Below, one piece after another: positions 29,606 to 57,430 of a stretch of DNA of 64,000 bases. The position numbers and the translations under genes were made by a program. Below the pieces are notes generated by a model. That model did no database searches. It was not told the origin of the DNA and saw only the letters and a list, made by a program, of their open reading frames with translations. How positions within the stretch are numbered: the first letter of the stretch is position 1; each line of letters begins with the position of its first letter. The stretch comes from Aliikangiella coralliicola (GTDB taxonomy: Bacteria; Pseudomonadota; Gammaproteobacteria; Enterobacterales; Kangiellaceae), in NCBI RefSeq assembly GCF_007004725.1, contig NZ_ML660163.1, positions 452,915 through 516,914 of the forward strand. The letters run 5' to 3'.

Positions 29606-30832
29606 TCAAGTGGCTTTTTTAAATATCAGCGAAGTATTGATGCCGCCAAAAGCAAAATTATTACTCATAACATACTCGCAGTCTAACACTCGATCACTTT
29701 CTGTGATGTAATCAAGTTCGCCGCATTCCGGGTCCACCTCGTCTAAATTAGCTGTCGGCGCAAACCAGCCACTATTCATCATTTCGATCGTCAACCAGGC
29801 TTCAAGTGAACCACATGCGCCCAGTGTATGACCAAAATAGCTTTTCAGAGAACTGATGGGAACATTGCGACCAAATACCGAGCGAGTAGCATTTGACTCA
29901 GCAACATCGCCACGATCCGTCGCCGTGCCATGGGCACTGACATAACCAATTCTAGCCGCCTCTACCTGCGCATCTTGAAGCGCTAACTGCATTGCGGTGG
30001 CCATAGTTTCCTGTTTGGGTTGGGTAACATGTGCGCCATCGGAATTACATCCAAAGCCAACCACTTCAGCGAGAATATTGGCGCCACGCTGCTTAGCATG
30101 GTCATAATTTTCTAAAATTAGCGTACCGGCTCCTTCGCCTATCACTAAGCCGTCGCGGTTTTTATCAAAGGGTTTTGGTGAAAGTTGCGGTGAACTATTT
30201 TGAGTAGAAGTTGCAAACAAAGAGTCAAACACCGCAGCCTGGGTAATGTTTAACTCTTCAGCGCCACCGGCAATCATTACTTGTTGCTTTCCATATTTTA
30301 TCGCTTCATAAGCGTAACCAATTCCTTGACTGCCAGAAGTGCAAGCGCTGCTAGTGGGAATAATTCGACCTTTACACCCAAAAAAAACGCCCATATTTAC
30401 TGGTGCAGTATGACTCATCATTTCAACATACGAAGTGGATGTAAAGCCTGTCATGGAGCCAGTGTTAAGCATATTAGAAAAAACAGTGATCGGCGCCATA
30501 CTGCCAGAAGAAGAACCATAAGCAATACCGGTTCTGCCGTCTGTTAGTATTTCTGAAGTAAGCAAGCCTGCCTGCTCCAATGCGGTTTGAGTTGCACACG
30601 TCGCCAACAGCGAAACACGCCCCATACTGCGGACCTTCTTGCGAGGAAATTTTGGAAAAACGTAATTTTCAATGGGTGCGGCAAGCCGGGTTCGAAGGTC
30701 ATCACTACAATCCCATTCAGTCATGTAGCGTACGGCATTTTTCTTCGACTCTAGTTGAGGACGGATTTTCTCCCAGGTATCACCAAAAGCAGTAATTCCA
30801 CTCATCCCGGTAACGACAACACGGTGACTCAT
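29606..30832 (-). CDS. apeR: Beta-ketoacyl-ACP synthase of the aryl polyene cluster
   Basis: Thiolase-fold condensing enzyme (FabF type), 408 residues, one of two full-length ketosynthases in the locus. The Cys-His-His triad is intact: SSACTSGSQG, SAHGTATDRGD and FGHTLGACGS. The order ketosynthase-dehydratase-ketoreductase-ketosynthase matches apeO-P-Q-R of the E. coli/Xenorhabdus clusters, which is the basis for the symbol. The ATG at 30830-30832 overlaps the apeQ stop as TGATG. In described APE systems this enzyme is accessory to the main elongating pair. It is the last gene of the operon. Confidence 0.88.
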   Translation of the reverse strand: MSHRVVVTGMSGITAFGDTWEKIRPQLESKKNAVRYMTEWDCSDDLRTRLAAPIENYVFPKFPRKKVRSMGRVSLLATCATQTALEQAGLLTSEILTDGRTGIAYGSSSGSMAPITVFSNMLNTGSMTGFTSTSYVEMMSHTAPVNMGVFFGCKGRIIPTSSACTSGSQGIGYAYEAIKYGKQQVMIAGGAEELNITQAAVFDSLFATSTQNSSPQLSPKPFDKNRDGLVIGEGAGTLILENYDHAKQRGANILAEVVGFGCNSDGAHVTQPKQETMATAMQLALQDAQVEAARIGYVSAHGTATDRGDVAESNATRSVFGRNVPISSLKSYFGHTLGACGSLEAWLTIEMMNSGWFAPTANLDEVDPECGELDYITESDRVLDCEYVMSNNFAFGGINTSLIFKKAT

Positions 30833-31557
30833 CAAGCCATTCCTCCATTGACTGAAATCACCTGACGAGTTAAATAAGCTGCTCCATCTGAAAATAGATA
30901 GCTAACCAAACTGGCAACTTCTTTAGCCTCGCCTAACCTTTTAGCCGGAATCATTTTCATTGCTTCACTGACTAGTTCGTCAGACAACATCTCAGTATTA
31001 ATTAAACCGGGAGCGACACAGTTGACTGTAATCTTTCTTTTTGCAAGCTCAACGGCAAGCGCCTTAGTTGCACCAATTAAACCTGCTTTTGACGCGCTAT
31101 AATTGACCTGACCGCGATTTCCCACGACGCCAGATACCGATGACATGGCAACAATTCGCCCCCCTTTTCGAGCTTGAATCATCGGCATTACAGCTGGATG
31201 AACCACATTATAAAAACCGTCCAGATTAGTGTGGATAACCTGGTCCCAATCTTCCCCGGTTATTGAAGGAAAGGCATTATCTCGAGTGATCCCCGCATTA
31301 CAAACAATGCCATAGTATGCGCCTTTCTCTTTAACATCTTCAGTAATAACCGTCGAAACTTGTTCTCTGTCAGCAATATCAAATTGTAATAAATAACTAT
31401 CGCTGCCAAGGGCTTTAAGCGCTTCGATAACCGATTGAGCACTATCGACGCCAGAACGGCAATTAACAACAACGTCAAATCCATCCTTAGCTAAGGATAG
31501 TGCGACCTCTTTTCCAATTCCACGACTGGAACCGGTTACTAAAACTCTTCTTCTCAT
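30832..31557 (-). CDS. apeQ: 3-ketoacyl-ACP reductase of the aryl polyene cluster
   Basis: Short-chain dehydrogenase/reductase (FabG type), 241 residues, that would reduce the beta-keto group after each condensation. TGSSRGIG (NADPH binding), CNAGITRDNAF and the Ser-Tyr-Lys catalytic residues (MSSVSGVVGN...YSASKAG) are complete. The start ATG at 31555-31557 shares its A with the apeP stop (TGATG). It is the only ketoreductase in the cluster, so it must act in every elongation cycle. Confidence 0.92.
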   Translation of the reverse strand: MRRRVLVTGSSRGIGKEVALSLAKDGFDVVVNCRSGVDSAQSVIEALKALGSDSYLLQFDIADREQVSTVITEDVKEKGAYYGIVCNAGITRDNAFPSITGEDWDQVIHTNLDGFYNVVHPAVMPMIQARKGGRIVAMSSVSGVVGNRGQVNYSASKAGLIGATKALAVELAKRKITVNCVAPGLINTEMLSDELVSEAMKMIPAKRLGEAKEVASLVSYLFSDGAAYLTRQVISVNGGMA

Positions 31558-32075
31558 CAATCAGTCTCTAATACTTTTCTCGCATCGTCAGTTTCGAATA
31601 CGTTTAGTTTTGCCCTGGCATAAAATTCATCACCGTGTTTAATGTCGCAATCGAAACTGGCAAGCCCCGAATCATCCATATAAAGCTGAGTGACATTAAT
31701 TTGGTAGGTTTGGTTACCCTCTAAATATTTCTTATCGATATGGTACTTACGGGTGCCGAGTAAAAATCCGAGCTTGATTGGCTGTCCTTTCAATTTTGCT
31801 TTTATACCGGCGAATAAAGCGATAGCCTGAGCCATATACTCTATTCCAACCCATGCAGGTACGCCATTATTACCGACATCAAAAAATTTGCTGTCTTCGT
31901 GCAAATCAATTTCAGCGCTCAAACTCTGCTCGCTATATTTAACAATTCTATCGAGTAATACCATTGGTGGCGAATGAGGAATCAGCTCAGCCACTGTGAA
32001 TTGCTCTATGATCGAACTCGCCTCACCAAAAGACTTACCAGTTGATTGTGATTTTACTGTGTCTAGCTTCACCAT
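31557..32075 (-). CDS. apeP: Hot-dog 3-hydroxyacyl-ACP dehydratase of the aryl polyene cluster
   Basis: FabA/FabZ-like hot-dog protein of 172 residues, family COG4706 by pattern. The catalytic His lies in LIPHSPPMVLLDR and the catalytic Glu in WVGIEYMAQAIAL, the usual pair. It would dehydrate the 3-hydroxyacyl intermediates to build the conjugated double bonds. About 15 residues precede the conserved core. A 95-bp gap separates it from apeO, the largest gap inside the operon, and it is coupled to apeQ. Confidence 0.88.
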   Translation of the reverse strand: MVKLDTVKSQSTGKSFGEASSIIEQFTVAELIPHSPPMVLLDRIVKYSEQSLSAEIDLHEDSKFFDVGNNGVPAWVGIEYMAQAIALFAGIKAKLKGQPIKLGFLLGTRKYHIDKKYLEGNQTYQINVTQLYMDDSGLASFDCDIKHGDEFYARAKLNVFETDDARKVLETD

Positions 32076-32170
32076 TGTTTATCGATACTCATAATGACTA
32101 ACATCTATAAACGACTCTCTTCTCGCAAGCATTCTAAATTCAAACCGTTCACCTGCCCACTCTGTCAATT

Positions 32171-33418
32171 TTAATCTCCGTCAACGCCCAATATGACGCT
32201 TACATTATTTCCACCAAATGCAAAAGAATTGCTCATAGTTTTAGACAAAGGACCAGAACTCGAACTCGTTTGACAAAGCGTAATTTTACTTAATTTGGGG
32301 TCGTTATGGCCATCATAAATGTGCGGAGCCAGCACTTCTTGTTCTCTATTGTTAAGTAACAACCAGCAAATACCGGCTTCAGTAGCACCGGCAGCACCTA
32401 AAGTATGGCCAGTTAAAGGTTTGGTCGAGCTCGTTTGCACGCGACCGCCAAAGATTTCGAAAACGGCTTTACTCTCCATCTCATCGTTTAATTTAGTGCC
32501 AGTTCCATGGAGATTAATATAGTCTATATCAGCAGCTTCTATTGTCGCATCAGATAATGCATTTCGCATAGCTTCAATGGCTCCCAGGCCTTCCGGATCA
32601 GGGGCCGACATATGGTGAGCATCCGATGACTCTCCGACCCCAAGTAGCCTGACGTTGCTAAGCCTGTTAGTTGCATCTCCTTTTTCACTCGCTTCTAGTG
32701 TTATAACCTCTTTTGTCATTACGAAAATAGCCGCCGCCTCACCAATATTAATGCCATCTCGATTGGCGCTAAAAGGATTCGTTAAGCTATCAGCGGTTGC
32801 TTCTAATGCGGAAAAACCGCCAAGTGTCATTTCACATAATGAGTCGGCTCCACCGACAATCACGGCGTCACATATCCCGAGCTCAATCAACCCTCGGGCA
32901 GAAGCAAATACTTTACCGCTCGATGAGCAGGCTGTAGAAATGACATATGCAGGACCTGAAATTCTCAAATATCTGGCCAAAAACTCAGAAACCGTGCCTA
33001 TCTCTTGTTGCTGATAATCAAACTGCTCGGGAAACTTGCCTTCCCTGTTTTTATGGGCAACAGCCACTTCCGATTCCGCAACGCCGGATGTACTGGTTCC
33101 CATAACAACTGCGACACGCTCGGAACCGTATTTTGCCACAACTTTCTCAATAACTGGCTTAATCTGCTCGATTGCAGCCAACGCAAGCCTGTTATTTCGA
33201 CAGTCAAGCTTGCTCAGTTCGGGTGGCACTTCAGGCAGTGCTTGTTGCACTTGACCAACATAATAGTTTTTGTTGCTTAACGGAGACACTATTCTGCCCA
33301 TACCCGGAGAGTCGGCTGAAATTAGATGCTCAAAAACAGCTTCTTTACCACTTCCCAGAGCATTTACAATTCCCAAGTCTGCCAAATAATAAGTATTTTC
33401 AGTCATCGTTTTGCTCAC
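32171..33418 (-). CDS. apeO: Beta-ketoacyl-ACP synthase (main elongating ketosynthase) of the aryl polyene cluster
   Basis: Second full-length ketosynthase, 415 residues. The catalytic residues are in STACSSSGKV (Cys), LHGTGTKLND (His) and LTGHTLGAAG (His). In characterised APE systems ApeO pairs with the truncated ApeC as a ketosynthase/chain-length-factor-like heterodimer; an ApeC homologue is encoded at the front of this operon. A GTG at 33416-33418, 3 bp after the preceding gene, gives the longest product. An ATG four codons later is equally plausible. Confidence 0.88.
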   Translation of the reverse strand: MSKTMTENTYYLADLGIVNALGSGKEAVFEHLISADSPGMGRIVSPLSNKNYYVGQVQQALPEVPPELSKLDCRNNRLALAAIEQIKPVIEKVVAKYGSERVAVVMGTSTSGVAESEVAVAHKNREGKFPEQFDYQQQEIGTVSEFLARYLRISGPAYVISTACSSSGKVFASARGLIELGICDAVIVGGADSLCEMTLGGFSALEATADSLTNPFSANRDGINIGEAAAIFVMTKEVITLEASEKGDATNRLSNVRLLGVGESSDAHHMSAPDPEGLGAIEAMRNALSDATIEAADIDYINLHGTGTKLNDEMESKAVFEIFGGRVQTSSTKPLTGHTLGAAGATEAGICWLLLNNREQEVLAPHIYDGHNDPKLSKITLCQTSSSSGPLSKTMSNSFAFGGNNVSVILGVDGD

Positions 33419-33421
33419 TCA

Positions 33422-34024
33422 TCAAAATTCTTCTATCGCTAGCGGTGAAATCTTCAATCCATAACCACGTAAGTGATGTTTGAACTCTAGCTGATGCTTA
33501 TAACTTGGCGTTCCGCGGTAGCTTATACTGATAATTTCTTCGCCATCCTTCATAAACCGACGCCGATTTCCTTCATTTGAATTCAGTAATTCGCATTGTC
33601 CAGATTTAAAACAATCAGAATGCTGTTTTAAGTGCTCGCGTAAGATCTTGTCCGGCCATAATGATAATTGAATGTCAGCAATGAGGTAACCAGGTTTAAT
33701 TTTTTCAATAACTTTGCTGATACCTTCACTGGTAATTTTTTCACCATCAAACTCAATGGTAAATAAGCGAGTGCCACTCGCCAACAATCCTACCACGACC
33801 ATTTTTTTCGAAGTGATTTCCGCTTGAAATAAAAGTTCATGTTGGTTGTTGTCGAAACTGATTTCTGCAGCTTGAGTAAGCGCTAACTGTTTACCCAAAC
33901 TGGCAGGCGTTAACAATGAAAAAGGAACTCCAGCGCTGATATCGATTGACTTGTCAGCGAGCTTGCGACTAACGCAACTACACAAACAAGTGATTGCTAT
34001 AATTAAGATAATTAACTTTTGCAT
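33422..34024 (-). CDS. DUF3261-type lipoprotein of the aryl polyene cluster
   Basis: Predicted lipoprotein of 200 residues with lipobox LCSC (Cys17). The mature domain, with FQAEITSKKMVVVGLLASGTRLFTIEFDG and YLIADIQLSLWPD, matches the DUF3261 lipoproteins commonly found in APE clusters. Its start overlaps the flavoprotein gene by 13 bp. It is probably an outer-membrane partner in pigment transport or anchoring; this is inferred from context only. Confidence 0.8.
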   Translation of the reverse strand: MQKLIILIIAITCLCSCVSRKLADKSIDISAGVPFSLLTPASLGKQLALTQAAEISFDNNQHELLFQAEITSKKMVVVGLLASGTRLFTIEFDGEKITSEGISKVIEKIKPGYLIADIQLSLWPDKILREHLKQHSDCFKSGQCELLNSNEGNRRRFMKDGEEIISISYRGTPSYKHQLEFKHHLRGYGLKISPLAIEEF

Positions 34025-35250
34025 ATTTCGGCCAAAACATTCAATCTTCGTTCCGGTTGTGCGACATAAGGGTTATTCTCATCCCACGCATATCCCGCTA
34101 AAATCGCACATATCATTTTTCTAACCTGCTGCGATGAATCCTGATAAAAAATAATGTCTTGAAGTCTTCCATCATACCAGGCATTAACAAACGCACGAAA
34201 AGTGTTAACACCTTTCAACAAACTATCGGAATAATCTTTTTGCCAACAAACTGTTTCACCTCGCTTCTCCTTAATTAAAAGCGACGTGGCCAGTTCTGCG
34301 GATTTAAATGCGATTGTTACGCCAGATGAAAAAACCGGATCTAAAAACTCTCCGGCATTCCCTAGCAAAGCAAAATTATTACCAAATAGAGACTTAACAT
34401 TTGCAGAGTAACCTTTAATTTGTTGCACTTCCGTGATGATTTCAGCCCTTTGTAATAACTTAGCTAAGTCTGGTTCAGCGGCAACAGCGCTGAGTAATTT
34501 ATCTCTCGGCTCTCCTGATAGTTCGGCAAAAAATTCAGGTTTACCAACCACGCCCAATGAACAGGTACCATCGGAAAATGGTATCAACCAATACCAAACA
34601 TCATTGTCCTGAGGATGTACGCTAATTAGTATTTTGTTCCGGTCATAGTCACCATCAGAAATCCCATCGCGAATATGACAAAAAATAGATTGCCTTTGAG
34701 GTAAATCAGATGGGTACTCCAAATCAAGCAAACGAGGTAAAACTCGGCCAAAACCGCTTGCATCTAAAACAAAACCAGCTTTAACCTCATAAGCCTCTCC
34801 TTGAGAGTCCTTAACAACAACCTCACTATAATCATCTTTCTCTTCAATTGAACAAACTTCGTGTTGGTAACGAATTTCCACTCCTAACTCTTCTGCCCTG
34901 TCAGCAAGTCTCTTGTCAAAGTCTGCTCGCTTTACTTGATAAGTAGTACCAGGCCCTTCAGAGTATTTCTGATTAAAATTGAATTCACTATAAACACCAT
35001 TTTTTCTAAATGCTGCCCCATCTTTAAATTGATACCTGGCCTCGTCTACCACCTCTCGCATATCGGCTTTTTCTAAAAACGACATAAGCTGAGGTAATAA
35101 ACTCTCCCCAATCGAAAAGCGAGGGAATTTTTGTTTTTCTAATACTAAAACATTAATTTTGTTTTGTTTTAGTAATGCTGAAGCCAAGCTCCCCGCTGGT
35201 CCAGCGCCTATTACTAAGACATCGACAGTTTCTTTTTTTAATTGTGTCAC
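34012..35250 (-). CDS. FAD-dependent oxidoreductase, halogenase-like
   Basis: Flavoprotein of 412 residues with an N-terminal Rossmann motif VIGAGPAGSLAS (residues 13-24) and a GESLLPQ segment. It carries W219-Y-W-L-I-P224, an exact WxWxIP signature of flavin-dependent halogenases. FDPVFSSGV-type residues (FLDPVFSSGVTIAF near 320) and K76 in FKDGAAF, where phenolic halogenases have their catalytic Lys, are also present. Such proteins are common in APE and xanthomonadin loci, and related oxidoreductases that do not halogenate share parts of these motifs. A role in halogenating or oxidising the aryl head is therefore only likely. The GTG start overlaps the preceding stop as TAGTG. Confidence 0.82.
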   Translation of the reverse strand: MTQLKKETVDVLVIGAGPAGSLASALLKQNKINVLVLEKQKFPRFSIGESLLPQLMSFLEKADMREVVDEARYQFKDGAAFRKNGVYSEFNFNQKYSEGPGTTYQVKRADFDKRLADRAEELGVEIRYQHEVCSIEEKDDYSEVVVKDSQGEAYEVKAGFVLDASGFGRVLPRLLDLEYPSDLPQRQSIFCHIRDGISDGDYDRNKILISVHPQDNDVWYWLIPFSDGTCSLGVVGKPEFFAELSGEPRDKLLSAVAAEPDLAKLLQRAEIITEVQQIKGYSANVKSLFGNNFALLGNAGEFLDPVFSSGVTIAFKSAELATSLLIKEKRGETVCWQKDYSDSLLKGVNTFRAFVNAWYDGRLQDIIFYQDSSQQVRKMICAILAGYAWDENNPYVAQPERRLNVLAEICKS

Positions 35251-37574
35251 TATGTATGTTTTCCGAGTTTAATAACCAAACTTCCTATCACAGGAGATAA
35301 AACCAATGAAGTACCGATACCAAATAGCATCGTCACACCAAAAGCATGAATAGCAGGCGTTTCACTAAGCGCCAATAAGCCAAACGAAAACAAAGTCGTC
35401 ATCGCAGAAAGCACAACGGCTAGTAATGTGTTAGCGCTCGCTTCTCGCGACTCCGCAAAAAATAAGCCATAATCGATCCCAATTCCGATCACCAAAAACA
35501 ACGCTAACGTATTAAATAAACTCAGTGGAATGTTAAACAAAAATAAACCGAGTAACGCACTGGCAATAGCAATGACTGGTGATGATATGATTAGTAGCGC
35601 TTTAACCACAGGATATCGAAAACTAAGTAATGTAAAAATTAAAACTAGCGCAACAAGTAATAACCATGAAGCTCTGGTTTCATATATCTGAAACAACTCA
35701 GAAATTCTTGAAACTTTATCGACGAATACAACATTTGCATCGATATCTTCTAATTTTTCAAGCTGATTAATTCCCTCAATAGAGATTATGGCCGCATACT
35801 GTTGATTGATATCGCCCAACCATAAATACGAGAGAGATTTTCCAAGGGGAGAACTTAACCAGTTTTCTGAAGAGATAATCTGACTTTTTGTTTCAGCAAA
35901 GTCGCGACGAAATTTATCAATGTCCTTCTCTTCAATTATTCCAGTGTTCGCAAGATTTATTAGCGCATCCGATTGATATAACCGTTGATAAAGCTGATAT
36001 ACTTGCTGCTGACGGCGAAGGCTGGGTAGCCATTGAGAAATGCTCTGGTAACCTTCGATGACTCCAGATTCAACTAATCTATCAAGTGCAGGAACCGCGT
36101 TTTCCAGACTCTCCAACATTTCTTCGAGCGTTTTTCCCTTGACCAGATAAAACTGGTTTGCAGCTGGCGTCAGCAGAATCGATTGAATCGCTTGTTGCTG
36201 TTGTGTCAATTCAACGCTACTATTTTGAAATTGACGAATATCGCTGCTTTCTTGAGGACTAGAATAAAAAGTAACTAGTGCGACTGCCGGAATGAGTAGT
36301 GTCATTAGCCAAATTCGCTTTGTCACCCCACTCTGTGCAAAGTTAATAATTTTATCGCAAACCAGAAGAACATGCCCTTGAATACGGCTTTTTAATGGTA
36401 TTGATGGCAGTAGTAAAACAACCGTAAGATAAGCAGCGACTAGTCCACTGATGCAGAATGTAGCCATTTGCTGTAATCCAGGAAACGGTGTGGTTAATAG
36501 CGAAAGATAGCCAATGACACTAGAGATCAAACCCAGGGTAATTGCAGGAAATACCTTGCTTAATCGACTGCGAGTCTCCGAACCTTGTTCAACAGAAAAA
36601 TAGTGAAAGGAATAATCAACAGCTACACCAATTAAACTTGCACCAAATACAATTGTCAGTAAATGAACTGACCCAAAAAGATAGTGAACAGTCACAAATC
36701 CACTACAGACACCAACAAAAATCGTGGTAGTCACCAACAATAACGGCTTGATACTCAAAAAAGCTAAACTGACTAAAGCGATTACGAGTATCAATGATCC
36801 CACACCAATTGTAGAAACTTCATTACGCGCTGTTTCCTGCGCATGTGACGCAAAAAACACTGCCCCAGTCCGCAGCAGCTTCGTACCAACTGAAGCATTA
36901 TGCCAATCAGATTCAACTTCACCTATAGCACTTAAGACCTTTTGCTGTACCTCCGGCGAAAATGCGCTTCGCTTTAAAGTTGCAGTGACTAAAACATAAT
37001 AAACATCATTCACTTTGGCAATTAAAAAACCTTCGTCAAGCCGCAGGTTTCGTTCACTATTGCTTATAGAAGATGTGAACCGATAAGACAAAAGAAATGG
37101 ATCTTTAGGAATTAGTTCTGCCAGGCTGCCGGACAAAGGCGAATAGAGTTGTTGAATGACTCGGTCAGAAAAGTCATCAAATTTTTTTTCATTCAATAAT
37201 TTTTCGTCGTTTTTCGAAACCAGGCGATGTCTATATAAGTAGCTAAACAACCCTTGTACTTTTTGCTCACTCGACGACATGCCAAAGCTAGCAGACTGAA
37301 TATCGTCAAGCGACTTTATTTTTTCAACAAGTTGCTCAGCTGACTTTTTCGCCTTCACTCGACTCTTATTGGCTACCAAAAACACCAAGCGCTGCATACT
37401 TTGTTGCGAAAATTGTTCAAACGCCTGCTCGCTAAACGGATCCTGCTGAGAAGATGGAAGCAACTTAAGAATATTGCTTTCGATATTGACACCATTCCGA
37501 AATAACGAAGAGGCTAGCGCTACTAGCAACGCCATTCCAACACACCACGCTAACAAGCCAAACTTATTATTCAA
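35250..37574 (-). CDS. RND/MMPL-family exporter of the aryl polyene cluster
   Basis: Inner-membrane transporter of 774 residues, built of two homologous halves. Each half has a TM1-periplasmic domain followed by a five-TM bundle (TMs near residues 7-25 and 255-400, then 420-440 and 640-765). The segments GASLIGVAVDYSFHYFSVEQ and VIGIGIDYGLFFAE carry the Asp residues typical of MMPL proton relays. It probably exports the finished polyene-lipid from the inner membrane together with the LolA-like protein, whose gene it overlaps by 8 bp. Confidence 0.9.
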   Translation of the reverse strand: MNNKFGLLAWCVGMALLVALASSLFRNGVNIESNILKLLPSSQQDPFSEQAFEQFSQQSMQRLVFLVANKSRVKAKKSAEQLVEKIKSLDDIQSASFGMSSSEQKVQGLFSYLYRHRLVSKNDEKLLNEKKFDDFSDRVIQQLYSPLSGSLAELIPKDPFLLSYRFTSSISNSERNLRLDEGFLIAKVNDVYYVLVTATLKRSAFSPEVQQKVLSAIGEVESDWHNASVGTKLLRTGAVFFASHAQETARNEVSTIGVGSLILVIALVSLAFLSIKPLLLVTTTIFVGVCSGFVTVHYLFGSVHLLTIVFGASLIGVAVDYSFHYFSVEQGSETRSRLSKVFPAITLGLISSVIGYLSLLTTPFPGLQQMATFCISGLVAAYLTVVLLLPSIPLKSRIQGHVLLVCDKIINFAQSGVTKRIWLMTLLIPAVALVTFYSSPQESSDIRQFQNSSVELTQQQQAIQSILLTPAANQFYLVKGKTLEEMLESLENAVPALDRLVESGVIEGYQSISQWLPSLRRQQQVYQLYQRLYQSDALINLANTGIIEEKDIDKFRRDFAETKSQIISSENWLSSPLGKSLSYLWLGDINQQYAAIISIEGINQLEKLEDIDANVVFVDKVSRISELFQIYETRASWLLLVALVLIFTLLSFRYPVVKALLIISSPVIAIASALLGLFLFNIPLSLFNTLALFLVIGIGIDYGLFFAESREASANTLLAVVLSAMTTLFSFGLLALSETPAIHAFGVTMLFGIGTSLVLSPVIGSLVIKLGKHT

Positions 37575-38217
37575 GACGACTCTCTTTTGAATGTTTTTTA
37601 TCGAGGCGACTTACTTCGAGGTATTTTTCTAAAACCTGTGGAGCTTGCTCTTTTAGCGCGGTCAATCGAATTTTAGTCAGATCTCCCCGGCTTTCTTCAA
37701 ATAAAATACTTTCTATATGCACTTGGCCGGTGAGTTCAATTGTTTTAAGTAATTTAGAAAACTCATTTTTAATTGGCGACAGTTTAATACTCCACCCCAT
37801 CTCATTACATTGCTTTGTGATCGTAAAATGCGATTTCAATGATTCGAGATTACCGCTTAATAAATTAAAAAACAACGTAGAAATTTCGTTAGCAATTGCA
37901 TTCGGTGGTATTTCAACAGGCAAATCGTTTTTATCAAACTGGTACATTTCTCCTGCGCCAATCACCATTGTCGATTTAAGTGGCGACGAAACTTGCCAAA
38001 TCAATTTGTTACTCGGACTCAGCCATATTTTCCCGCGTGAAATAAGCGGTCGTGATAGCGCCTTAATCTCTTTTGTTTGAATAAAATCTGAATGCAGCTC
38101 GCTCTTAGCAATTTTCTGGCTAATTTGTTTAATTTGACAAGTCGATGCGCTCGCCCCAATAACAGCATTCGCCCCAAATAAAAAACTCAGTATCAATAAT
38201 GAGTTAACAATTTTCAT
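37567..38217 (-). CDS. LolA-like periplasmic carrier of the aryl polyene cluster
   Basis: Secreted protein of 216 residues with a signal peptide (about residues 1-24, cleaved near GASAS). The outer-membrane lipoprotein carrier fold is recognised from DFIQTKEIKALSRPLISRGK and IWLSPSNKLIWQVSSPLKST, a pattern typical of LolA. Its position between a thioesterase and the MMPL exporter suggests it carries the polyene-lipid through the periplasm rather than lipoproteins. It overlaps the thioesterase gene by 14 bp. Confidence 0.85.
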   Translation of the reverse strand: MKIVNSLLILSFLFGANAVIGASASTCQIKQISQKIAKSELHSDFIQTKEIKALSRPLISRGKIWLSPSNKLIWQVSSPLKSTMVIGAGEMYQFDKNDLPVEIPPNAIANEISTLFFNLLSGNLESLKSHFTITKQCNEMGWSIKLSPIKNEFSKLLKTIELTGQVHIESILFEESRGDLTKIRLTALKEQAPQVLEKYLEVSRLDKKHSKESRLE

Positions 38218-38629
38218 TTTGCACTCCGAGTTTTTTTAACAATATTTCAGGGGACACCAAAAGCATTTCTCGTGTGTTAATATCAACTGCAACCTGAGTT
38301 GTATAACCTCTTGTTAAACGCTTGCCTGTCTCATCACAAAGAATCTGATATTTAATTTTCAAGCGATTTTCAAATTCAACAATCGTTGCTTTACAACGCA
38401 ACTTTTGACCAAAACTGGCAGAATTTACGTATTTTAATCGCATATCGACTATTGGCCACATATATCCAGACTCTTTCATTTCTGGGTATCCATAGTCAAA
38501 CTTTGCAAGTAACGCACAACGAACTCTTTCAAAATATTTTACATAGTTTCCGTGCCACACGACTTCCATCGGATCGAGATCGTAAAAAGGTACCTCAATG
38601 ACTAATTCGGCCGACAGTTCATTTTTCAT
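38204..38629 (-). CDS. Hot-dog acyl thioesterase (YbgC-like) of the aryl polyene cluster
   Basis: 4HBT-family thioesterase, 141 residues. The signature YDLDPMEVVWHGNYVKYFE (about residues 16-34) contains the catalytic Asp. It could release the product or clear misprimed chains from the acyl carrier proteins. The first residues are non-conserved and it lies 18 bp after the ammonia-lyase gene. The exact substrate is not readable from the sequence. Confidence 0.87.
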   Translation of the reverse strand: MKNELSAELVIEVPFYDLDPMEVVWHGNYVKYFERVRCALLAKFDYGYPEMKESGYMWPIVDMRLKYVNSASFGQKLRCKATIVEFENRLKIKYQILCDETGKRLTRGYTTQVAVDINTREMLLVSPEILLKKLGVQNENC

Positions 38630-38647
38630 TATAGTTCCAACTCTAAA

Positions 38648-40216
38648 TTAGTAGGTCGACCAGACTTGCAACTGAATTAAATCAACAAATTTTCGCAATT
38701 CTTTATCCAGAGGTCTATCTTCAGTCAATATTTCAAAATGCTCAAAAACTTCATTATGAGTTTGTAGGATAGAATCAGAGAGCGAACTCTTTTCCAGTTC
38801 ATTCTGTCTCATTCTGAGCTCTAACCCCTGAGTACTTGCCATCAACAACGCAGAAGCAATTTGTTCCGTCAACTCTAACACTCTGACACAATCTCTGGCA
38901 GCAATGGTTCCCATGCTCACTTTGTCCTGATTATGGCACTCGGTTGAACGAGAGAAAACGCTCGCGGGCATAGTGTTTTTTAATGCTTCAGCGGTCCAGG
39001 CGCTAACAGCGATCTGTACTGCCTTAAACCCATGATTCAGTGGTTTTCGATCTGAAACTGCGGCAGATAGATTATTCGGTAATCCATTATTAAACTTGTT
39101 ATCAACCAACAATGCCATTTGTCGGTCCATTAAGTCTGCCAAATTGGCGACACAGTTCTTAAGGGAGTCCATCACAAAAGCAATATGGCCACCGTAAAAA
39201 TGACCGCCATGGAGTACATGCTCTCCTGCACCATCAATGATTGGATTGTCATTAGCGCTGTTGAGTTCAATTTCAATCATTTGCCTCATCCAGGGAAGAG
39301 AATCTCGAAGCACACCAATCACATGTGGCGCACAGCGGATTGAGTAGCGATCTTGCAATCTCGAAGAGTTGCGTGGATGATGATCGTGATGCAAATCTTC
39401 TCTAATCCAGGTGGCAATTTGTCCCTGTCCGGGATGTGGTTTTACGCTAAATAATATATCATCAAAATGATTGCTATTACCTTTTAGCGCTAATGAGCAA
39501 AGTGAAGTAATCCGCGTGCATAAACGGGTGAGGTATTCAGCTCTTGAATAAGCTAAACAAGCCAAGGCGGTCATTACTGCTGTTCCATTCATCACAGCTA
39601 GTCCCTCTTTAGGTTTAAGCTTTAACGGAGTAATATCCAACTCCTCAAAAACTTCGGCTGTGGCTCTTTTTTCTTTCTCAAAATAAACATCTCGCTCGCC
39701 AATTAAAGTTGCCGCAACATAAGACAAGGGGGTAAGGTCACCGCTCGCACCAACCGAACCTTCTTTGGGAATTACGGGAACAATATTTTTATTCAGCAAT
39801 GTTTCAAATTGGCGCAACATTCGCCAGCGTACTCCTGAGACTCCTTGACTCAGAGAAGCTAAACGTACGGCTAAAATCGCTCGCCCTTCCAATTCGTTAA
39901 AAAATTCACCAAGCCCACATCCGTGAAACCGAGTCAAATGTAGCGGTAATTCGTCAACTTTATCCAACGGTACCTGTACTGTACATGAATCACCATATCC
40001 AGTAGTAACACCGTAGATAACACCATCTTCTTTTAACAAACGCTCAAGAAATTCTGCGCCAGAAGTAACTTTCTCATAAAATGATTCGTCATCGCTTAGG
40101 CAAACGTCAGCATCGTTGTGTGCAATCGCGTTGACGTCTTCAATCGTTAGCTTTTCCTTACCAAAAAGGATGGTTTTACTTGTACGCTTTTCTTCCACTT
40201 TCTTTTCAATCAACAT
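38648..40216 (-). CDS. Aromatic amino acid ammonia-lyase (HAL/TAL family)
   Basis: MIO-dependent lyase of 522 residues. The Ala-Ser-Gly triad that cyclises to the MIO cofactor is A157-S158-G159 in GSVGASGDLTPLSY. YGVTTGYGD supplies the catalytic Tyr loop. At the substrate-selectivity site the sequence is F97-H98 (LTRFHGCG); His there is typical of tyrosine/histidine lyases, not phenylalanine lyases. In an APE locus tyrosine is the expected substrate, giving 4-coumarate as aromatic starter. A true histidase is unlikely because no other hut gene is nearby. Confidence 0.88.
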   Translation of the reverse strand: MLIEKKVEEKRTSKTILFGKEKLTIEDVNAIAHNDADVCLSDDESFYEKVTSGAEFLERLLKEDGVIYGVTTGYGDSCTVQVPLDKVDELPLHLTRFHGCGLGEFFNELEGRAILAVRLASLSQGVSGVRWRMLRQFETLLNKNIVPVIPKEGSVGASGDLTPLSYVAATLIGERDVYFEKEKRATAEVFEELDITPLKLKPKEGLAVMNGTAVMTALACLAYSRAEYLTRLCTRITSLCSLALKGNSNHFDDILFSVKPHPGQGQIATWIREDLHHDHHPRNSSRLQDRYSIRCAPHVIGVLRDSLPWMRQMIEIELNSANDNPIIDGAGEHVLHGGHFYGGHIAFVMDSLKNCVANLADLMDRQMALLVDNKFNNGLPNNLSAAVSDRKPLNHGFKAVQIAVSAWTAEALKNTMPASVFSRSTECHNQDKVSMGTIAARDCVRVLELTEQIASALLMASTQGLELRMRQNELEKSSLSDSILQTHNEVFEHFEILTEDRPLDKELRKFVDLIQLQVWSTY

Positions 40217-40235
40217 AAACTATTTCTCTTCAATA

Positions 40236-41942
40236 TCACTCGAATTTTCTTTGGACTTCTTTCGAGTTGTCCGCCTGCCAAAAGTCATAAAAATTAAACC
40301 ATTGCAATGGCGCTTTTTTACAATAATACGTGAGACGTTGTGCAAATTTCTGCACCACACCTTCTAACTCTTGTTTGCGCGTACTACGCGAAAACTTTAA
40401 TGAATCTGCAAAGTGTTCAAGGTAAATGTTATGTACACCTTGTTCTTTAATACAAAATAACAAATAGACAGGGCACTCTAAAATACCGGCCAAAATATGT
40501 GGCCCTTCGGCAAAAGGTGCTTTTTTACCGAGAAAGTCGACATATTGAACACGACCGATACTACTGACCGATGTACGATCACCAACAATAATAACCACTT
40601 CTCCCTGCTCTACTTTTTGCTTTAAGAGAATTGCTGTATCAATGCTAATTTTTTCGACATGAATTAGATTGACTTCTACATTTGGATTGCTCTTACTAAG
40701 AGCTTGTTGAAACTTAGATGCATGTTTATTAAAAACTATGGCATTAATTTTAAGCTCGTTATTTTTCACGCCAACGGCCCGGCAAAGTTCCAGGTTGCCC
40801 AAGTGTGAACCGATAAATACAGCACCTTTTCCTGATGCCGCCACCTTTTCAAATAAGTCTTTACCGTGTACTTTAATTTCGCTTTCATCAAGGTCGCCCA
40901 TCCAGCATGCAATTTTGTCAATTGCGGAAACACCAAATTGGTAAAAATGTTGGTATATTTGACGTAATTTAACGTCAGTTGGTTCTCCCTGATATTTGGC
41001 TAATTGCTGCAAATAAGTTCTGGAGGACTCCCGCGCTACTTTCGAGGTTAATACAAAGTAGCTAATTACAGGATGCAATAAAATCAGAAAAATATTACGT
41101 CCAAATACTTTATAAACCCAAATCAAGAAGTTTAACCCGTGGAGACTTCCTTTTTCTTTTTCCGCCCCCCAATGTTTGACACGCATTTTTGATTGTTTTT
41201 CCGAGCGAAATTTACGCACCAATAATGATGGGAACCGTCTCAACATACCGAAAAATAAACGCGTATGCATTTTACTTATCAGCCAGTTATCTCGAAATAA
41301 CTGAAAATGCGAGACACCATCTTCGGGGTAAATCACTTTTGTCGGTATGAATTTTATGTCAACAGATTCCCAATAAAGCCGAACCAAAATTTCGACGTCA
41401 AAATCCATTCTTTTACCTAGCTTATTGTTCTCAATTATTTCTATACAGCTGGCAAGTGGGTAAACTCGAAACCCACACATCGAATCTTTGATCTCAAAAC
41501 TCAATGTTTCGACCCAAACCCAGAAATGAGTAATATATCTAGGTAGCAACCGACCTAATGGTACAGATTTGTCATATACCGGATATCCGCAAATAGTGTC
41601 CCGCGGAAAACGCTCGCTGCATTCAAGAAACTTTTGAATATCTTCCAGGTTATGTTGCCCGTCAGCATCAACCTGCAATGCGTGTGAAAAACCTTGATTA
41701 AAAGCGTGTCGCATCCCAGCCATCACCGCACCACCTTTACCCTGGTTTTCAGGCAAATGTAAAACAGTAATAGCTTCGTTAGATTCGCCTATCTTCTTTA
41801 AAAGCTGAGTCGTATGCTCATCACTACCATCATTAACCACAATAATAGGAATGTTGAAATCGCCAAGCTCTTTGAGCATGGGCTCAAAAACAGCTGTGTG
41901 ATTGTAGTTAGGTATAATAAAACAGGCGGAGTATTGGGTCAT
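40236..41942 (-). CDS. Glycosyltransferase-acyltransferase fusion of the aryl polyene cluster
   Basis: Two-domain protein of 568 residues. Residues 1-235 form a family 2 glycosyltransferase with the nucleotide-sugar/metal motif VDADGQH (D92, D94) and VVNDGSD. A membrane-associated linker (about 255-300) follows. Residues about 310-560 form an LpxL-type acyltransferase with the HX4E motif in GSHLGNLE and VIIVGDRTS. The fusion is common in APE loci and would assemble the glycolipid anchor. It begins directly after apeI. Confidence 0.87.
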   Translation of the reverse strand: MTQYSACFIIPNYNHTAVFEPMLKELGDFNIPIIVVNDGSDEHTTQLLKKIGESNEAITVLHLPENQGKGGAVMAGMRHAFNQGFSHALQVDADGQHNLEDIQKFLECSERFPRDTICGYPVYDKSVPLGRLLPRYITHFWVWVETLSFEIKDSMCGFRVYPLASCIEIIENNKLGKRMDFDVEILVRLYWESVDIKFIPTKVIYPEDGVSHFQLFRDNWLISKMHTRLFFGMLRRFPSLLVRKFRSEKQSKMRVKHWGAEKEKGSLHGLNFLIWVYKVFGRNIFLILLHPVISYFVLTSKVARESSRTYLQQLAKYQGEPTDVKLRQIYQHFYQFGVSAIDKIACWMGDLDESEIKVHGKDLFEKVAASGKGAVFIGSHLGNLELCRAVGVKNNELKINAIVFNKHASKFQQALSKSNPNVEVNLIHVEKISIDTAILLKQKVEQGEVVIIVGDRTSVSSIGRVQYVDFLGKKAPFAEGPHILAGILECPVYLLFCIKEQGVHNIYLEHFADSLKFSRSTRKQELEGVVQKFAQRLTYYCKKAPLQWFNFYDFWQADNSKEVQRKFE

Positions 41943-42281
41943 TTATTCAATCACTAATTTGCCTGAAGAGTGTTTCTTGCCATCCGACTCAAACGCAAAC
42001 CAAAGTTTGCCTTGCTTATGCTCGACTCTCAAACTAATTTTGCAATTTGGCTGAATCACGTGCTGATATTTAATGGCGTCCATTCGGTTAACTTCAATTG
42101 AGTTTAATTCCGAAAAGTAGCGTTTTGTGAACTCAATGACCCATTGAATTTGCACGACTCCGGGAATGATAGGTACTGAGTCAAAATGACCTTCAAAGGC
42201 CTGGAGTTTCTCATTAATGTCCAATACCAGTTGCATGGTAGAGTCTTCTTTAATTACTTCAACTACTTCTGGAAATTCCAT
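41943..42281 (-). CDS. apeI: FabZ-like hot-dog protein ApeI, predicted acidic residue replaced by Gln
   Basis: Small hot-dog dehydratase-like protein of 112 residues. GHFDSVPIIPGVVQIQW (residues 31-47) aligns with the FabZ active-site helix: His32 is kept. Fourteen residues further, where FabZ has its catalytic Glu and FabA an Asp, there is Gln46. In described APE systems ApeI dehydrates together with ApeP on the ApeE/ApeF carriers. Here it may have altered chemistry or use another acid. The ATG overlaps the apeH stop as TAATG. Confidence 0.85.
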   Translation of the reverse strand: MEFPEVVEVIKEDSTMQLVLDINEKLQAFEGHFDSVPIIPGVVQIQWVIEFTKRYFSELNSIEVNRMDAIKYQHVIQPNCKISLRVEHKQGKLWFAFESDGKKHSSGKLVIE

Positions 42282-43651
42282 TAGCTCGCTTTCTCACTAT
42301 GACAGAATAATTGTAGTAACGAATCTGTGTCGAGTTTACTTTGAGAAGTCAACGGTATGCACTCAACGATTCGCCATTTTCTCGGGATGGTAACTGGTTC
42401 AAACCTCTGCCGCATTTGCCGTTTCCAGTGTTCAACCAAATACCGCTTACCTTTTTCTTCTAAAAGCAATTGCCCTTCGGAAGATAAAACGATCACAACA
42501 CCTAAAACATGACGCTCGCCGGAAAGTAATAAAGCAACAGAGTTCTCAACAGAAGTCATAGTTTCCAGATAGGATTCAATTTCTGTTAACGAAACTCTCT
42601 TTTCTTCCAGCTTTACCACGCGATCTTTTCGGCCTTTTAAAATAAATTGGCCATCTGAAAAAATCTCTAATTGATCATCTAATACAATCCCATATTTTTC
42701 AGCGATATGGGGGGAACGCAATATTGTGTCAGTATTATTGATCTCTAGTACGACTTTTTTAAACGGCTTCCATGGCGTAGTCAATTCCGTCTGTTGCCTA
42801 TGTGCAATTCCTCCAGTTTCGGTACTACCATATATTTCAATTGGAACATTCTTAAAATAATTCTTCGCCAACTGTGCCGCCGCAAGCGACAGAGGCCCAC
42901 CCGACGAAAAGGTCACAGTGGGTTCTATTCCATTAAGGTCAAGATCTATTCTTGAAAGAAAAGCGGGGCTCGAAACAAAGACAAACGGTCTCTCAGAACG
43001 CTTCGCCATTAGTAGCTGCTCAGGGTACTCAATTTGCTGTTCAGCCCAACTTCTACCGGTAACAAAGGGCCATAGTAATTTAAACAAAAGACCATAAATA
43101 TGCGAATGAGAAACACTGGCGACAACGGTTTTATTTTGAACTAGCAAACCGAAGGCTTCTTCTAGAGTTTCTACTTCATTCAACAATGATATTAGCTTTT
43201 TCTTAATAGCCTTTGGTGCTCCGGTAGAACCCGAAGTAAAAAATGTAATAACTTCAGCTCCACTCAATTGATACTGAGACTCGTTAAATGACTCAGTACC
43301 ACAATCGAGATTAATCGATAATTTATTATCAATATCCAAGTCACTTTCACTGATTATTGCATCATACTCACTATTAATTTCATCCAACCACCTAGGCGTT
43401 CTGTTAGCACAAATAATGACTTCTTTTTTTTGAGTCAACAATGCGAATAATGCAACCAAAAACCAATAAGAGCTTTCAATGCTTAATAGCCATTTTGATG
43501 CACTATTTAATGAGATTTTATTAGAAAGTCGGGCAAGATCCTGACGAAACTTATCTGAACTAATTGTTTTATTGGAGGATAAATCAAAACAAACATCGAA
43601 ACAGCCACTTTGATGTTTTTGACTCAAAATTTGATTCAATTGACTTAACAT
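42281..43651 (-). CDS. apeH: Acyl-ligase (AMP-forming) of the aryl polyene cluster
   Basis: ANL-superfamily adenylating enzyme of 456 residues, shorter than typical acyl-CoA ligases (about 520-550). The P-loop TFFTSGSTGAPKAIKKK (about residues 133-149), the A5-like EIYGSTETGG and the hinge LKGRKDRVVKLEEKRVS near residue 345 are visible. It would activate the aromatic acid made by the ammonia-lyase and load it on an acyl carrier protein. It lies 3 bp after the small membrane-protein gene. Confidence 0.88.
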   Translation of the reverse strand: MLSQLNQILSQKHQSGCFDVCFDLSSNKTISSDKFRQDLARLSNKISLNSASKWLLSIESSYWFLVALFALLTQKKEVIICANRTPRWLDEINSEYDAIISESDLDIDNKLSINLDCGTESFNESQYQLSGAEVITFFTSGSTGAPKAIKKKLISLLNEVETLEEAFGLLVQNKTVVASVSHSHIYGLLFKLLWPFVTGRSWAEQQIEYPEQLLMAKRSERPFVFVSSPAFLSRIDLDLNGIEPTVTFSSGGPLSLAAAQLAKNYFKNVPIEIYGSTETGGIAHRQQTELTTPWKPFKKVVLEINNTDTILRSPHIAEKYGIVLDDQLEIFSDGQFILKGRKDRVVKLEEKRVSLTEIESYLETMTSVENSVALLLSGERHVLGVVIVLSSEGQLLLEEKGKRYLVEHWKRQMRQRFEPVTIPRKWRIVECIPLTSQSKLDTDSLLQLFCHSEKAS

Positions 43652-43654
43652 TTT

Positions 43655-44215
43655 TTACTTAACTAAGAATAGCTTCCGATATATGAATTCTCCGCCAAAT
43701 ATACAACCCATAATCAAATACGAAATTAAACCATTATATAAGGTCCAAAACTCAATACTTGAAAAAAAAGTAGTAAATAGTGAGAAGAGTCCATTTAGTA
43801 GAAAAAATACGCACCATATTTGCGTAACTAAGCGAGTATACTCAATTGCCTCTTGCGGCAATTCAGGTTCACTCAGTCTGGCAATTCGCTCTATGGCTGA
43901 GGGCGGATTTTTCAGGCTATACCCAAAAGCGACAAGAAACGAAAAACTAACGATAGTAGGATAAAGTTTCAAGCCTTGAACAGAATTGCTAATTACTGTA
44001 ATTACAACGAGCGTAATCCCGAGAAAAGTAACAATAATTAGCGTATTGCTCTCAGCATTACTTCTCATTTTTTTTCTTGAAAAATATCTTAATACTAAAA
44101 TAGCCGCAAGAATGATAGCCATGAACTTAGGCTCAAAATGATTGAGCCCAAAATATATAACCAAGGGATATAATACTACCAATATGGCTGCAAAAGCAGT
44201 CGCGGCAATTTTCAT
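43655..44215 (-). CDS. Integral membrane protein of the aryl polyene cluster (COG4648-like)
   Basis: Membrane protein of 186 residues with about six hydrophobic segments (starting at residues 6, 32, 57, 86, 128 and 155). The pattern FSFLVAFGYSLKNPPSAIERIARL followed by EYTRLVTQIWCVFFLLNG is typical of COG4648 proteins encoded between the carrier proteins and the ligase in APE loci. Its biochemical role is unknown. The start overlaps the apeF stop as TAATG. Confidence 0.82.
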   Translation of the reverse strand: MKIAATAFAAILVVLYPLVIYFGLNHFEPKFMAIILAAILVLRYFSRKKMRSNAESNTLIIVTFLGITLVVITVISNSVQGLKLYPTIVSFSFLVAFGYSLKNPPSAIERIARLSEPELPQEAIEYTRLVTQIWCVFFLLNGLFSLFTTFFSSIEFWTLYNGLISYLIMGCIFGGEFIYRKLFLVK

Positions 44216-44463
44216 TAGCTATTAATTAATTGGTCTACTGCATCAACAACGTCATTCACTGTTCTTACAGACTTAAAAGTTTCAGGTTGTATCTTTTTGC
44301 CTGTTATTTCCTGCAATTTAATGACTAAGTCAACAGTGTCAATACTATCAAGATCGAGCTCTTGGTAAAGATTTGCTTCCAAGGTTATTTCTTCTTTTTC
44401 AATTTCAAACTCTTCAACCAAAATGCTTGTTAGCTGTTCGAGTATTTCTTTCTTATCTTTCAT
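44215..44463 (-). CDS. apeF: Acyl carrier protein of the aryl polyene cluster (second)
   Basis: ACP of 82 residues. The 4'-phosphopantetheine site is Ser40 in ELDLDSIDTVD. The protein is acidic and of normal ACP size. Its start shares a base with the apeE stop (TAATG). APE systems typically carry two ACPs, one of which may be favoured for starter loading and the other for elongation; the sequence does not say which. Confidence 0.93.
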   Translation of the reverse strand: MKDKKEILEQLTSILVEEFEIEKEEITLEANLYQELDLDSIDTVDLVIKLQEITGKKIQPETFKSVRTVNDVVDAVDQLINS

Positions 44464-44726
44464 TAAGCTATTTCTCTCTGCTCTTTAACAAACGCGGCCA
44501 GACTAGCCACGGAATAAAAATGTTTTTTCGACTCTTCTGAACTTGCTTCTAATTTAATGTTATATTTTTTCTTCAAAGCTAATCCTAATTCCAAAGCATC
44601 GATTGAGTCTAAACCTAATCCCTCACCAAACAACGCTTCTTCGGACTCAATGTCCTCGACGGAAATGTCTTCCAATTCCAGTGATTCAATAATCAGGGAT
44701 TTTATTTCAACTTCTAACTCATGCAT
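44463..44726 (-). CDS. apeE: Acyl carrier protein of the aryl polyene cluster (first)
   Basis: ACP of 87 residues from the ATG at 44724-44726, which overlaps the acyltransferase stop by 8 bp and has GAGG upstream. The phosphopantetheine site is Ser41 in GLGLDSIDALELG. The central helix is well conserved. It is adjacent to a second, sequence-divergent ACP, so these are not recent duplicates. Confidence 0.92.
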   Translation of the reverse strand: MHELEVEIKSLIIESLELEDISVEDIESEEALFGEGLGLDSIDALELGLALKKKYNIKLEASSEESKKHFYSVASLAAFVKEQREIA

Positions 44727-45501
44727 AATTTTTGTTTTCCTCAACAAAATAGTCTTGAATAAAGGATGTCATACGCCTGGCACTAACCGATAAGCTTTGT
44801 TCTGAGCTCACAAAATTATCAACCTCTACCGGTTTACCCACCCTAACTGAAAAATCGGCTTTTTTATAAGGGATACTATACCATGGCTCATTTTTAGTAA
44901 GCGTTGACGGATGGCAGTGAATAACAACTGGCACTAGATCAACACTGCATCTGATAGCGATGTTACTCGCACCACGCTGGAACTTAAGCGGTTGTGTAGG
45001 TTTAGTGCGAGTTCCTTCCGGAAAGATAATCAGTGAATACCCCGACTGCAACGATTTGCTACAAGCGCTAAATAAACGCTCTGGATCTTCGGTGTTCTTA
45101 ATATAACCGGCAGCTTTGACAACTCCCTTTAAGAAAAAATTATCCCACAAACCTTTTTTAACAATACAATCTGCTTGTGGCAATATCGCAATTAAAACAA
45201 CCACGTCGATTAGCGAAGGATGATTGGCAATAATTAGCTTTCCATGAAATTTGGTTAACTCTTGCTCCGCTTTTTCGATGTCGAAGTGAAACATTCCAAA
45301 GTTGGACATCATCGTGATAAAAAAGCGAAAACTCTTATGGATAATATGCCTGGCGAGTTTGGTTCTCTTTTGTTTATTTTTGCAAAATATATTGAGTGAT
45401 GGGAACACAACTAACGTTAACAGCAGCCCACCAACTCCGAAAGCAAAAAAACTAAACGCAGTCGCTATCAACCGCCAGACATAGTTTATAGAACTAAACA
45501 T
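44719..45501 (-). CDS. 1-acyl-sn-glycerol-3-phosphate acyltransferase-like protein
   Basis: PlsC-family membrane acyltransferase of 260 residues from the ATG at 45499-45501, which overlaps the apeC stop (TAATG). The HX4D motif is NHPSLIDVV (near residue 76) and the second motif is IIFPEGTRTKP. An N-terminal membrane segment (about residues 8-35) is present. It presumably transfers an acyl or polyene chain during formation of the lipid-linked pigment. Confidence 0.88.
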   Translation of the reverse strand: MFSSINYVWRLIATAFSFFAFGVGGLLLTLVVFPSLNIFCKNKQKRTKLARHIIHKSFRFFITMMSNFGMFHFDIEKAEQELTKFHGKLIIANHPSLIDVVVLIAILPQADCIVKKGLWDNFFLKGVVKAAGYIKNTEDPERLFSACSKSLQSGYSLIIFPEGTRTKPTQPLKFQRGASNIAIRCSVDLVPVVIHCHPSTLTKNEPWYSIPYKKADFSVRVGKPVEVDNFVSSEQSLSVSARRMTSFIQDYFVEENKNYA

Positions 45502-46247: not shown

Positions 46248-46297
46248 TTTGCCGACTTCTTGCAGAAAACGCGCAATTTTCACACAATTAGTAGACT

Positions 46298-55723: not shown

Positions 55724-55742
55724 AAATAATCCTCTTCAAGTG

Positions 55743-56363: not shown

Positions 56364-56390
56364 CTGTTAATTCTCCAGCAATACCTAAAG

Positions 56391-56777: not shown

Positions 56778-56783
56778 AGTTGT

Positions 56784-57404: not shown

Positions 57405-57430
57405 CTTCGTACTCCAAATAAAATAGCGCT

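Follow-up and report, generated by a model that had tools for sequence, protein, structure and literature searches.

The flavoprotein gene and its operon

The stretch of DNA considered here, referred to below as the window, comprises 64,000 nucleotides of the gammaproteobacterium Aliikangiella coralliicola (contig NZ_ML660163.1, positions 452,915 to 516,914, of assembly GCF_007004725.1) and carries an operon for the biosynthesis of an aryl polyene (APE). Within this operon lies a gene for a halogenase-like flavin adenine dinucleotide (FAD) flavoprotein of 412 amino acids, which starts with GTG and occupies positions 34012–35250 of the minus strand, an assignment based on Pfam, the PDB and an AlphaFold2 model. 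Frame 1 of the plus strand contains many stop codons over these positions and the coding frame is that of the minus strand, running from 35250 down to 34012. The gene very probably encodes an optional APE-tailoring enzyme and we favour, with a probability of about 0.6, the view that this enzyme is a FADH2-dependent halogenase of the carrier-protein type, acting on the aryl ring in APE biosynthesis.

The residues on which this view turns are all encoded on the minus strand. They are a lysine, K76 (codon at 35023–35025), which falls in the lysine column of halogenases that have been characterised; the segment W219-Y-W221-L-I223-P224, which forms the WxWxIP motif (34579–34596); the pair G297-N298 (34357–34362), with an asparagine at the place of the aspartate of the GDA segment in the carrier-protein halogenases compared; and the segment F302-LDPVFSS-G310, an FxxPxxSxG motif that includes F307 (34321–34347). 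A preliminary description of this DNA had listed K76, a WxWxIP signature at W219–P224 (here WYWLIP) and an FLDPVFSSGV segment, all of which lie exactly where it put them, and it had correctly placed the gene inside the APE operon, where it sits between apeM and apeN and overlaps both.

The operon consists of 18 genes on the minus strand, extending over positions 29606–46283. It begins with apeC-like to apeF-like genes for a ketosynthase/chain length factor (45501–46283), an acyltransferase (44719–45519) and two acyl carrier proteins (ACPs), apeE-like (44463–44747) and apeF-like (44215–44463), so that two PP-binding carrier proteins lie within 44215–44747. Then follow an apeG-like membrane protein (43655–44215), assigned mainly by position since its Pfam IspA match falls below the cut-off, an apeH-like acyl-ACP ligase forming adenosine monophosphate (42281–43651), an apeI-like dehydratase (41943–42281), an apeJ-like glycosyltransferase/acyltransferase (40236–41942), an aromatic amino acid ammonia-lyase (38648–40216), an apeK-like thioesterase (38204–38629), an apeL-like LolA-type carrier (37567–38217) and an apeM-like RND exporter (35250–37574). 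Beyond the flavoprotein gene are located an apeN-like DUF3261 (LolB-like) protein (33422–34024), an apeO-like ketosynthase (32171–33418), an apeP-like dehydratase (31557–32075), an apeQ-like ketoreductase of the FabG2 kind (30832–31560) and an apeR-like ketosynthase (29606–30835). The ammonia-lyase probably converts tyrosine to a 4-coumarate starter, by comparison with FlxA (PMC3992019).

This order is that of the core apeC–apeR of Escherichia coli CFT073 as given in Table 1 of PMC8253772, to which the ammonia-lyase and flavoprotein genes are added, two genes that the table does not contain. The CFT073 cluster lacks the flavoprotein, so an APE can be made without it. In the window the gene is an integral part of the operon, as judged from its overlaps: the apeM stop and the flavoprotein start share one base (TAGTG), and the flavoprotein end and the apeN start share 13 bases. 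Ribosomal protein genes (S4, S5, L6, L5, L14 and L16 by Pfam), together with rpoA and secY, occupy positions 54737–63876 and begin about 8.5 kb past the operon, which places the cluster in a core chromosomal neighbourhood.

Conserved residues

Conservation was examined in an alignment of 150 distinct proteins, the window protein included, which comprises those among the loci fetched that exceed 300 bits and 350 aligned residues and omits broken or short copies, for example those of G034 and G037. Residues K76, W219, W221, I223, P224, G297, N298, F302, P305, S308, G310, W358 and Y359 do not vary in any of the 150. Among the sources, the 80 named loci had been retrieved with the patterns FPRF[SV]IGES and FLDP[VI]FSSG, so that the invariance of these segments is partly built in, whereas K76, the tryptophans and N298 lie outside the patterns and their invariance is not. 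The K76 column holds the lysine of PltA, ChlB4, Mpy16, CndH, CmlS and 8zop, and this lysine has a catalytic role in halogenases.

F307 stands where tryptophan halogenases have a glutamate, which is also present in three paralogues of the A. coralliicola genome (L105, L106 and L110); we take this column to be that of PrnA E346, the catalytic glutamate of the FxEPLE segment. A phenylalanine likewise occupies the column in PltA, ChlB4, Mpy16, CndH (3e1t) and CmlS. In a LodB-like relative (L219), which scores 256.6 bits and thus falls below the curated cut-off of 400 for its family, GWWYTAIR replaces WxWxIP and there is no lysine at the K76 place, showing that relatives not regarded as halogenases may lack these marks.

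Sequence and fold neighbours

The Pfam Trp_halogenase model matches the protein with 85.6 bits (cut-off 21), and the motifs are therefore beyond chance. By sequence, the PDB chain that ranks first is 3nix from Cytophaga hutchinsonii (E 7e-107). Behind it come nine chains (E 1e-37 to 3e-29), 8zop, CmlS, Mpy16, PltA, CndH, ChlB4, two Bmp2 entries and RadH, each of which is identified as a halogenase by its molecule name or the title of its entry. A search of the PDB with a profile built from 17 relatives gave a similar result, with halogenases next after 3nix and ahead of any reductase or hydroxylase. The AlphaFold2 model has a mean predicted local distance difference test (pLDDT) score of 92.8, and its closest structural neighbour is again 3nix (Z 55.5 over 401 residues), followed by ChlB4 (44.1), PltA (43.9), Mpy16 (43.9), Bmp2 (42.8) and 8zop (FasV; 42.3), with RadH and CndH at 39–43; together these halogenases span Z 39–44 over 358–397 residues.

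The structure 3nix, a structural-genomics entry from a member of the Bacteroidota, belongs to the same clade as the window protein (support 99/99), is 40–41% identical to it and shares the lysine, WxWxIP, GNA and FLDPxFSSG. It transfers no function, and its label "flavoprotein/dehydrogenase" is probably misleading. PltA, Mpy16, ChlB4 and Bmp2 resemble the window protein in fold (Z 43–44 over 383–394 residues), and the first three share with it the lysine, WxWxIP, the FSSG motif and the phenylalanine in place of the glutamate of tryptophan halogenases. They differ in being only 24–27% identical and in carrying GDA rather than GNA, and PltA, Mpy16 and ChlB4, the three included in the tree described below, form a separate clade there. 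All four act on a pyrrolyl group thioesterified to a carrier and not on a phenol. CndH (3e1t) and other SgcC3-type enzymes exhibit the same motifs and are distinguished by a separate clade (98/99) and by GDA; their substrates are carrier-bound, tyrosine-derived phenols, chemically the nearest to the head of an APE. The tree row from Streptomyces globisporus C-1027 is presumably SgcC3. The PrnA-like tryptophan halogenases, six of which are encoded in the organism's own genome, are members of the same superfamily, and the three that were aligned have the lysine; they are far removed in sequence, larger, and carry the glutamate of FxEPLE.

Position in the family tree

A tree of 53 rows, in which the non-halogenating rows are few and poor, places the window protein in a clade of 22 rows (99/99), together with 3nix, a protein from Aureispira and APE-type proteins of the Pseudomonadota and Corallococcus. 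The clade excludes two weak geranylgeranyl reductase (GGR)-like rows and a LodB-like row, although all three have long branches and their placement is untrustworthy: the GGR-like rows, L228 and L229, match TIGR02032 below its cut-off only, L228 looks to us like a kynurenine monooxygenase, and the LodB-like row is a fragment of 321 amino acids from a full frame of 442. In this tree the protein groups neither with halogenases of established function nor with non-halogenating enzymes.

Genes from clusters with xanthomonadin-like gene content (L074–L078, L080 and L217 from Azospirillum) make up a clade of their own (98/90), with an identity of about 30% to the window protein, and they occupy another place in their clusters. 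This xanthomonadin-type clade is defined by cluster gene content, in a tree without a named Xanthomonas or Azoarcus sequence. Its members share the type of pathway, the lysine and the motifs with the window protein and differ in clade, identity, gene position and the presence of GDA.

These results bear on the preliminary description in several respects. The term halogenase-like flavoprotein was borne out by the fold, the lysine and both motifs of flavin-dependent halogenases, whereas the expected Lys-Glu pair is not present, F307 being at the glutamate place. Structure prediction, which the description had suggested, put 3nix closest and carrier-protein halogenases above hydroxylases, with the reservation that CmlS ties with the latter, and phylogenetic placement set the protein apart from the GGR-like and LodB-like rows while bringing no characterised halogenase into its clade.

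Distribution and gene order

Any match to the flavoprotein at E 1e-3 is found in 28 of 61 near relatives, and at 1e-30 it is matched in 69 of the 295 genomes of the order. In these 295 genomes, APE clusters were recognised by a relative of apeR at 1e-120 (132 genomes) or by the ammonia-lyase at 1e-100 (93 genomes, 92 of them kept, the match of G062 with 390 bits and 43% having been dropped). The flavoprotein is nearly restricted to APE genomes of the order, occurring in 68 of the 133 with either marker against one of the 162 without (Fisher test, 4e-28, ignoring kinship). Moreover, it accompanies the ammonia-lyase, being present in 65 of the 92 ammonia-lyase genomes as opposed to three of the 41 APE genomes that lack this enzyme (Fisher test, 3e-12, again ignoring kinship). 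At the level of the phylum, 62 of 398 genomes match at 1e-20, and the matches of about 30% identity belong to other clades where they were placed in the tree.

Gene order was compared in the 80 named loci, the best of at least 593. None of the 80 comes from Xanthomonas or Azoarcus; the nearest named relative, among these 80, is that of a Kangiellaceae bacterium (63% identity). In 57 the gene lies between apeM (or apeL) and apeN or apeO, in 17 it is found elsewhere in or beside the APE cluster, two loci are partial and four show fewer than three APE genes in the stretch. In Vibrio and Photobacterium loci the gene is situated beyond apeC. The ammonia-lyase is encoded in the same stretch in 58 of the 80. 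Among ammonia-lyase clusters that lack the flavoprotein, of which 17 of 27 were fetched, apeM is directly beside apeN in 14, one of which is from the window's own genus (G005, locus L196), a genus in which genomes G000 and G002 do carry the gene. Loci L199 and L205 carry an unrecognised open reading frame of apeN size at the apeM–apeN site and the layout of L207 is ambiguous.

Of the 35 ammonia-lyase genomes in which the flavoprotein gene and a methyltransferase gene occur together, 16 have the latter within 100 bases of the former and on the same strand, among them 14 of 14 flavoprotein carriers of one family (f21); these are hand counts from coordinates, with Pfam domains assigned at one locus, L087. 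The L087 protein (L087:7814–8881) is a methyltransferase of 355 amino acids with an O-methyltransferase domain, and an APE marker is present in 78 of the 80 genomes that match this protein at E 1e-30. Enzymes of this type are likely to methylate the head of the polyene. The A. coralliicola genome contains no match to the L087-type methyltransferase at E 1e-30. If the two enzymes competed for the same ring positions, their genes might exclude one another, but in the ammonia-lyase genomes such an effect is not significant, the flavoprotein being present in 35 of 55 with and 30 of 37 without the methyltransferase (Fisher p 0.10).

Some copies of the gene have hardly any APE genes, or none, in the surrounding 10 kb or so and lie next to unrelated genes, namely those in L043/L095, L015/L090, L008/L088, L141 and L168; the genome to which L015/L090 belongs (G062) carries the flavoprotein and no APE marker at the thresholds used. 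Seven proteins encoded beside the copies in L088, L090, L095 and L168 fall into unrelated Pfam families or none, and gave no functional clue.

Proposed function and alternative explanations

Halogenation of a carrier-bound substrate is the best supported function, given the two ACPs of the operon, the nearest folds and the intact lysine; the halogenases closest in fold act on carrier-bound aromatics. In the scheme that we propose, a reductase encoded elsewhere in the cell would supply FADH2 and the reduced enzyme would react with O2 to yield a flavin hydroperoxide, which would oxidise chloride or bromide to the hypohalous acid. The latter would travel through the tunnel to K76, from where an electrophilic halogen could be delivered to the 4-hydroxyphenyl head, the favoured position being ortho to its hydroxyl group. 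The substrate would be the coumarate-derived chain carried on one of the two operon ACPs.

Several observations weigh against halogenation. The operon shows no recognisable flavin reductase gene, and a genome scan limited to the reductase family PF01613 yielded a sole match of 23.5 bits, below the cut-off of 27. The 25 top-ranking NCBIfam models listed all score below their cut-offs, CmlS leading them with 139.9 against 900 bits. The asparagine that replaces the aspartate of GDA is found in 150 of 150 aligned proteins. The window clade holds no characterised halogenase, and the forks that join it to the xanthomonadin-type clade and to the PltA, CndH/SgcC3-like, CmlS and 8zop lines are unsupported. 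The association with the ammonia-lyase weakens when families are counted by hand (11 of 14 against 2 of 7; Fisher p 0.056), and the copy from Aureispira (L115, Bacteroidota) has no recognisable APE core within 24 kb. Finally, the open-access literature that was searched, outside which the main APE and flexirubin papers lie, ties no halogenated product to the clade.

The fold itself also admits oxygenation, and an unlikely but serious alternative is a ring hydroxylase, in which a flavin monooxygenase built on the halogenase fold would add a hydroxyl group to the aryl head or the polyene. QhpG provides a precedent, since this protein shares the fold, likewise lines its channel with tryptophans and is a proven hydroxylase (PMC7876137). 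The p-hydroxybenzoate hydroxylases are close in fold, the best with Z 35.9, about the value that the halogenase CmlS reaches (35.5), and several NCBIfam monooxygenases are listed for the protein, all below cut-off. Halogenation is nevertheless preferred over hydroxylation because the lysine and WxWxIP are kept in every one of the 150 aligned proteins and because ChlB4, PltA, Mpy16, Bmp2 and 8zop exceed the best hydroxylase by 6–8 Z units. The deposited name of 3nix, the closest structure, could instead suggest a dehydrogenase or reductase, or a halogenase descendant that no longer halogenates, engaged in the redox upkeep of the polyene or its anchor. The departure of GNA from GDA and a match to the geranylgeranyl reductase model TIGR02032 (119.5 bits, under the cut-off of 158.8) are consistent with this explanation, which we consider decidedly improbable given that K76 and both tryptophans, present in 150 of 150, would hardly be kept after loss of function and that the digeranylgeranyl reductase 3oz2 ranks far lower both by sequence and by fold.

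The preliminary description had drawn an analogy with the xanthomonadins, and the gene might accordingly be an orthologue of the xanthomonadin-cluster halogenase that brominates as in Xanthomonas. Both are halogenase-like genes of aryl polyene clusters and, according to PMC3691225, Xanthomonas clusters combine a halogenase gene with a brominated pigment, while the Lysobacter enzymogenes cluster has no halogenase gene and its pigment no bromine pattern. However, the genes of xanthomonadin-like clusters, a class assigned by gene content, form the separate, about 30% identical clade described above and lie at another cluster position, so that orthology is very improbable and was discarded on the grounds of clade and synteny. 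The analogy is further weakened by arcuflavin, an aryl heptaene of Azoarcus that is reported as nonbrominated in PMC3949708 despite the presence of arcA, annotated as a halogenase, in its cluster; this also counts against halogenation by the window protein, although ArcA, by gene order, resembles the xanthomonadin-type clade rather than the window clade.

Among the best 80 of at least 593 loci, members of the window clade occur in Duganella, Cupriavidus, Pseudomonas, Stenotrophomonas, Acinetobacter, Methylobacter and Corallococcus. Many of the carrier genera belong to soil or freshwater, and the availability of bromide in the sea, which had been invoked for a brominated product, is therefore no argument; chloride would be at least as likely a substrate as bromide.

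Implications for aryl polyene pigments

Clusters of this kind were already known to contain halogenase-like genes, which Figure 5 of PMC3691225 marks beside related ketosynthase pairs in several genomes. For the flexirubins, ring methylation and chlorination vary, and their start from tyrosine-derived 4-coumarate via an ammonia-lyase, as described in PMC3992019, follows the same starter logic as the window operon with its ammonia-lyase. In the literature surveyed, halogenated aryl polyenes are limited to xanthomonadins and some flexirubins. Judged from its sequence, the window operon plausibly yields a halogenated pigment, a reading to which we incline, and the enzyme belongs to a widespread, as yet uncharacterised family linked to this pathway.

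Few bacterial pigments are as widely distributed as the aryl polyenes, whose gene clusters form one of the commonest families in bacteria. A broader proposal, which we advance tentatively and with rather less than even confidence, is that many of them carry an overlooked halogen on the phenolic head, introduced by a distinct clade of carrier-protein halogenases. On that proposal the clade would extend over Pseudomonadota, Myxococcota and Bacteroidota, on land and in the sea, with 3nix as its first structure, and the gene would be a cassette at the apeM–apeN site, cleanly gained or lost in many lineages. If the clade halogenates, about half of the sampled APE genomes of the order (the 68 of 133) would produce a halogenated pigment that has perhaps been missed, with consequences for ideas on pigment photochemistry and antioxidant action, and a new halogenase for phenols on carriers would be available for biocatalysis. 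If it does not, the clade would represent a clean case of accepted halogenase sequence marks misleading annotation.

Further halogenase-like genes

Other halogenase-like genes were encountered. The 7.04-Mb genome of A. coralliicola contains six further strong Trp_halogenase matches (411–447 bits; loci L105–L110), located at C1:726361–727827, C2:131194–132582 and C2:536054–547433 of genome G000, the last interval holding four genes in 11 kb; the three aligned paralogues carry both the lysine and the EPLE glutamate. At least one public record (H6) labels a member of the window clade as a tryptophan 7-halogenase.

Loci L079 (G412) and L083 (G363) each carry two differing halogenase-like flavoprotein genes, close to each other on opposite strands and beside ketoreductase and dehydratase genes; in the tree each copy pairs with its counterpart in the other genome, giving two distinct lines. 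Among the Alphaproteobacteria, Azospirillum ramasamyi (L217) and Roseomonas haemaphysalidis (L233) bear aryl-polyene-like clusters on plasmids, each with a halogenase-like gene of its own.

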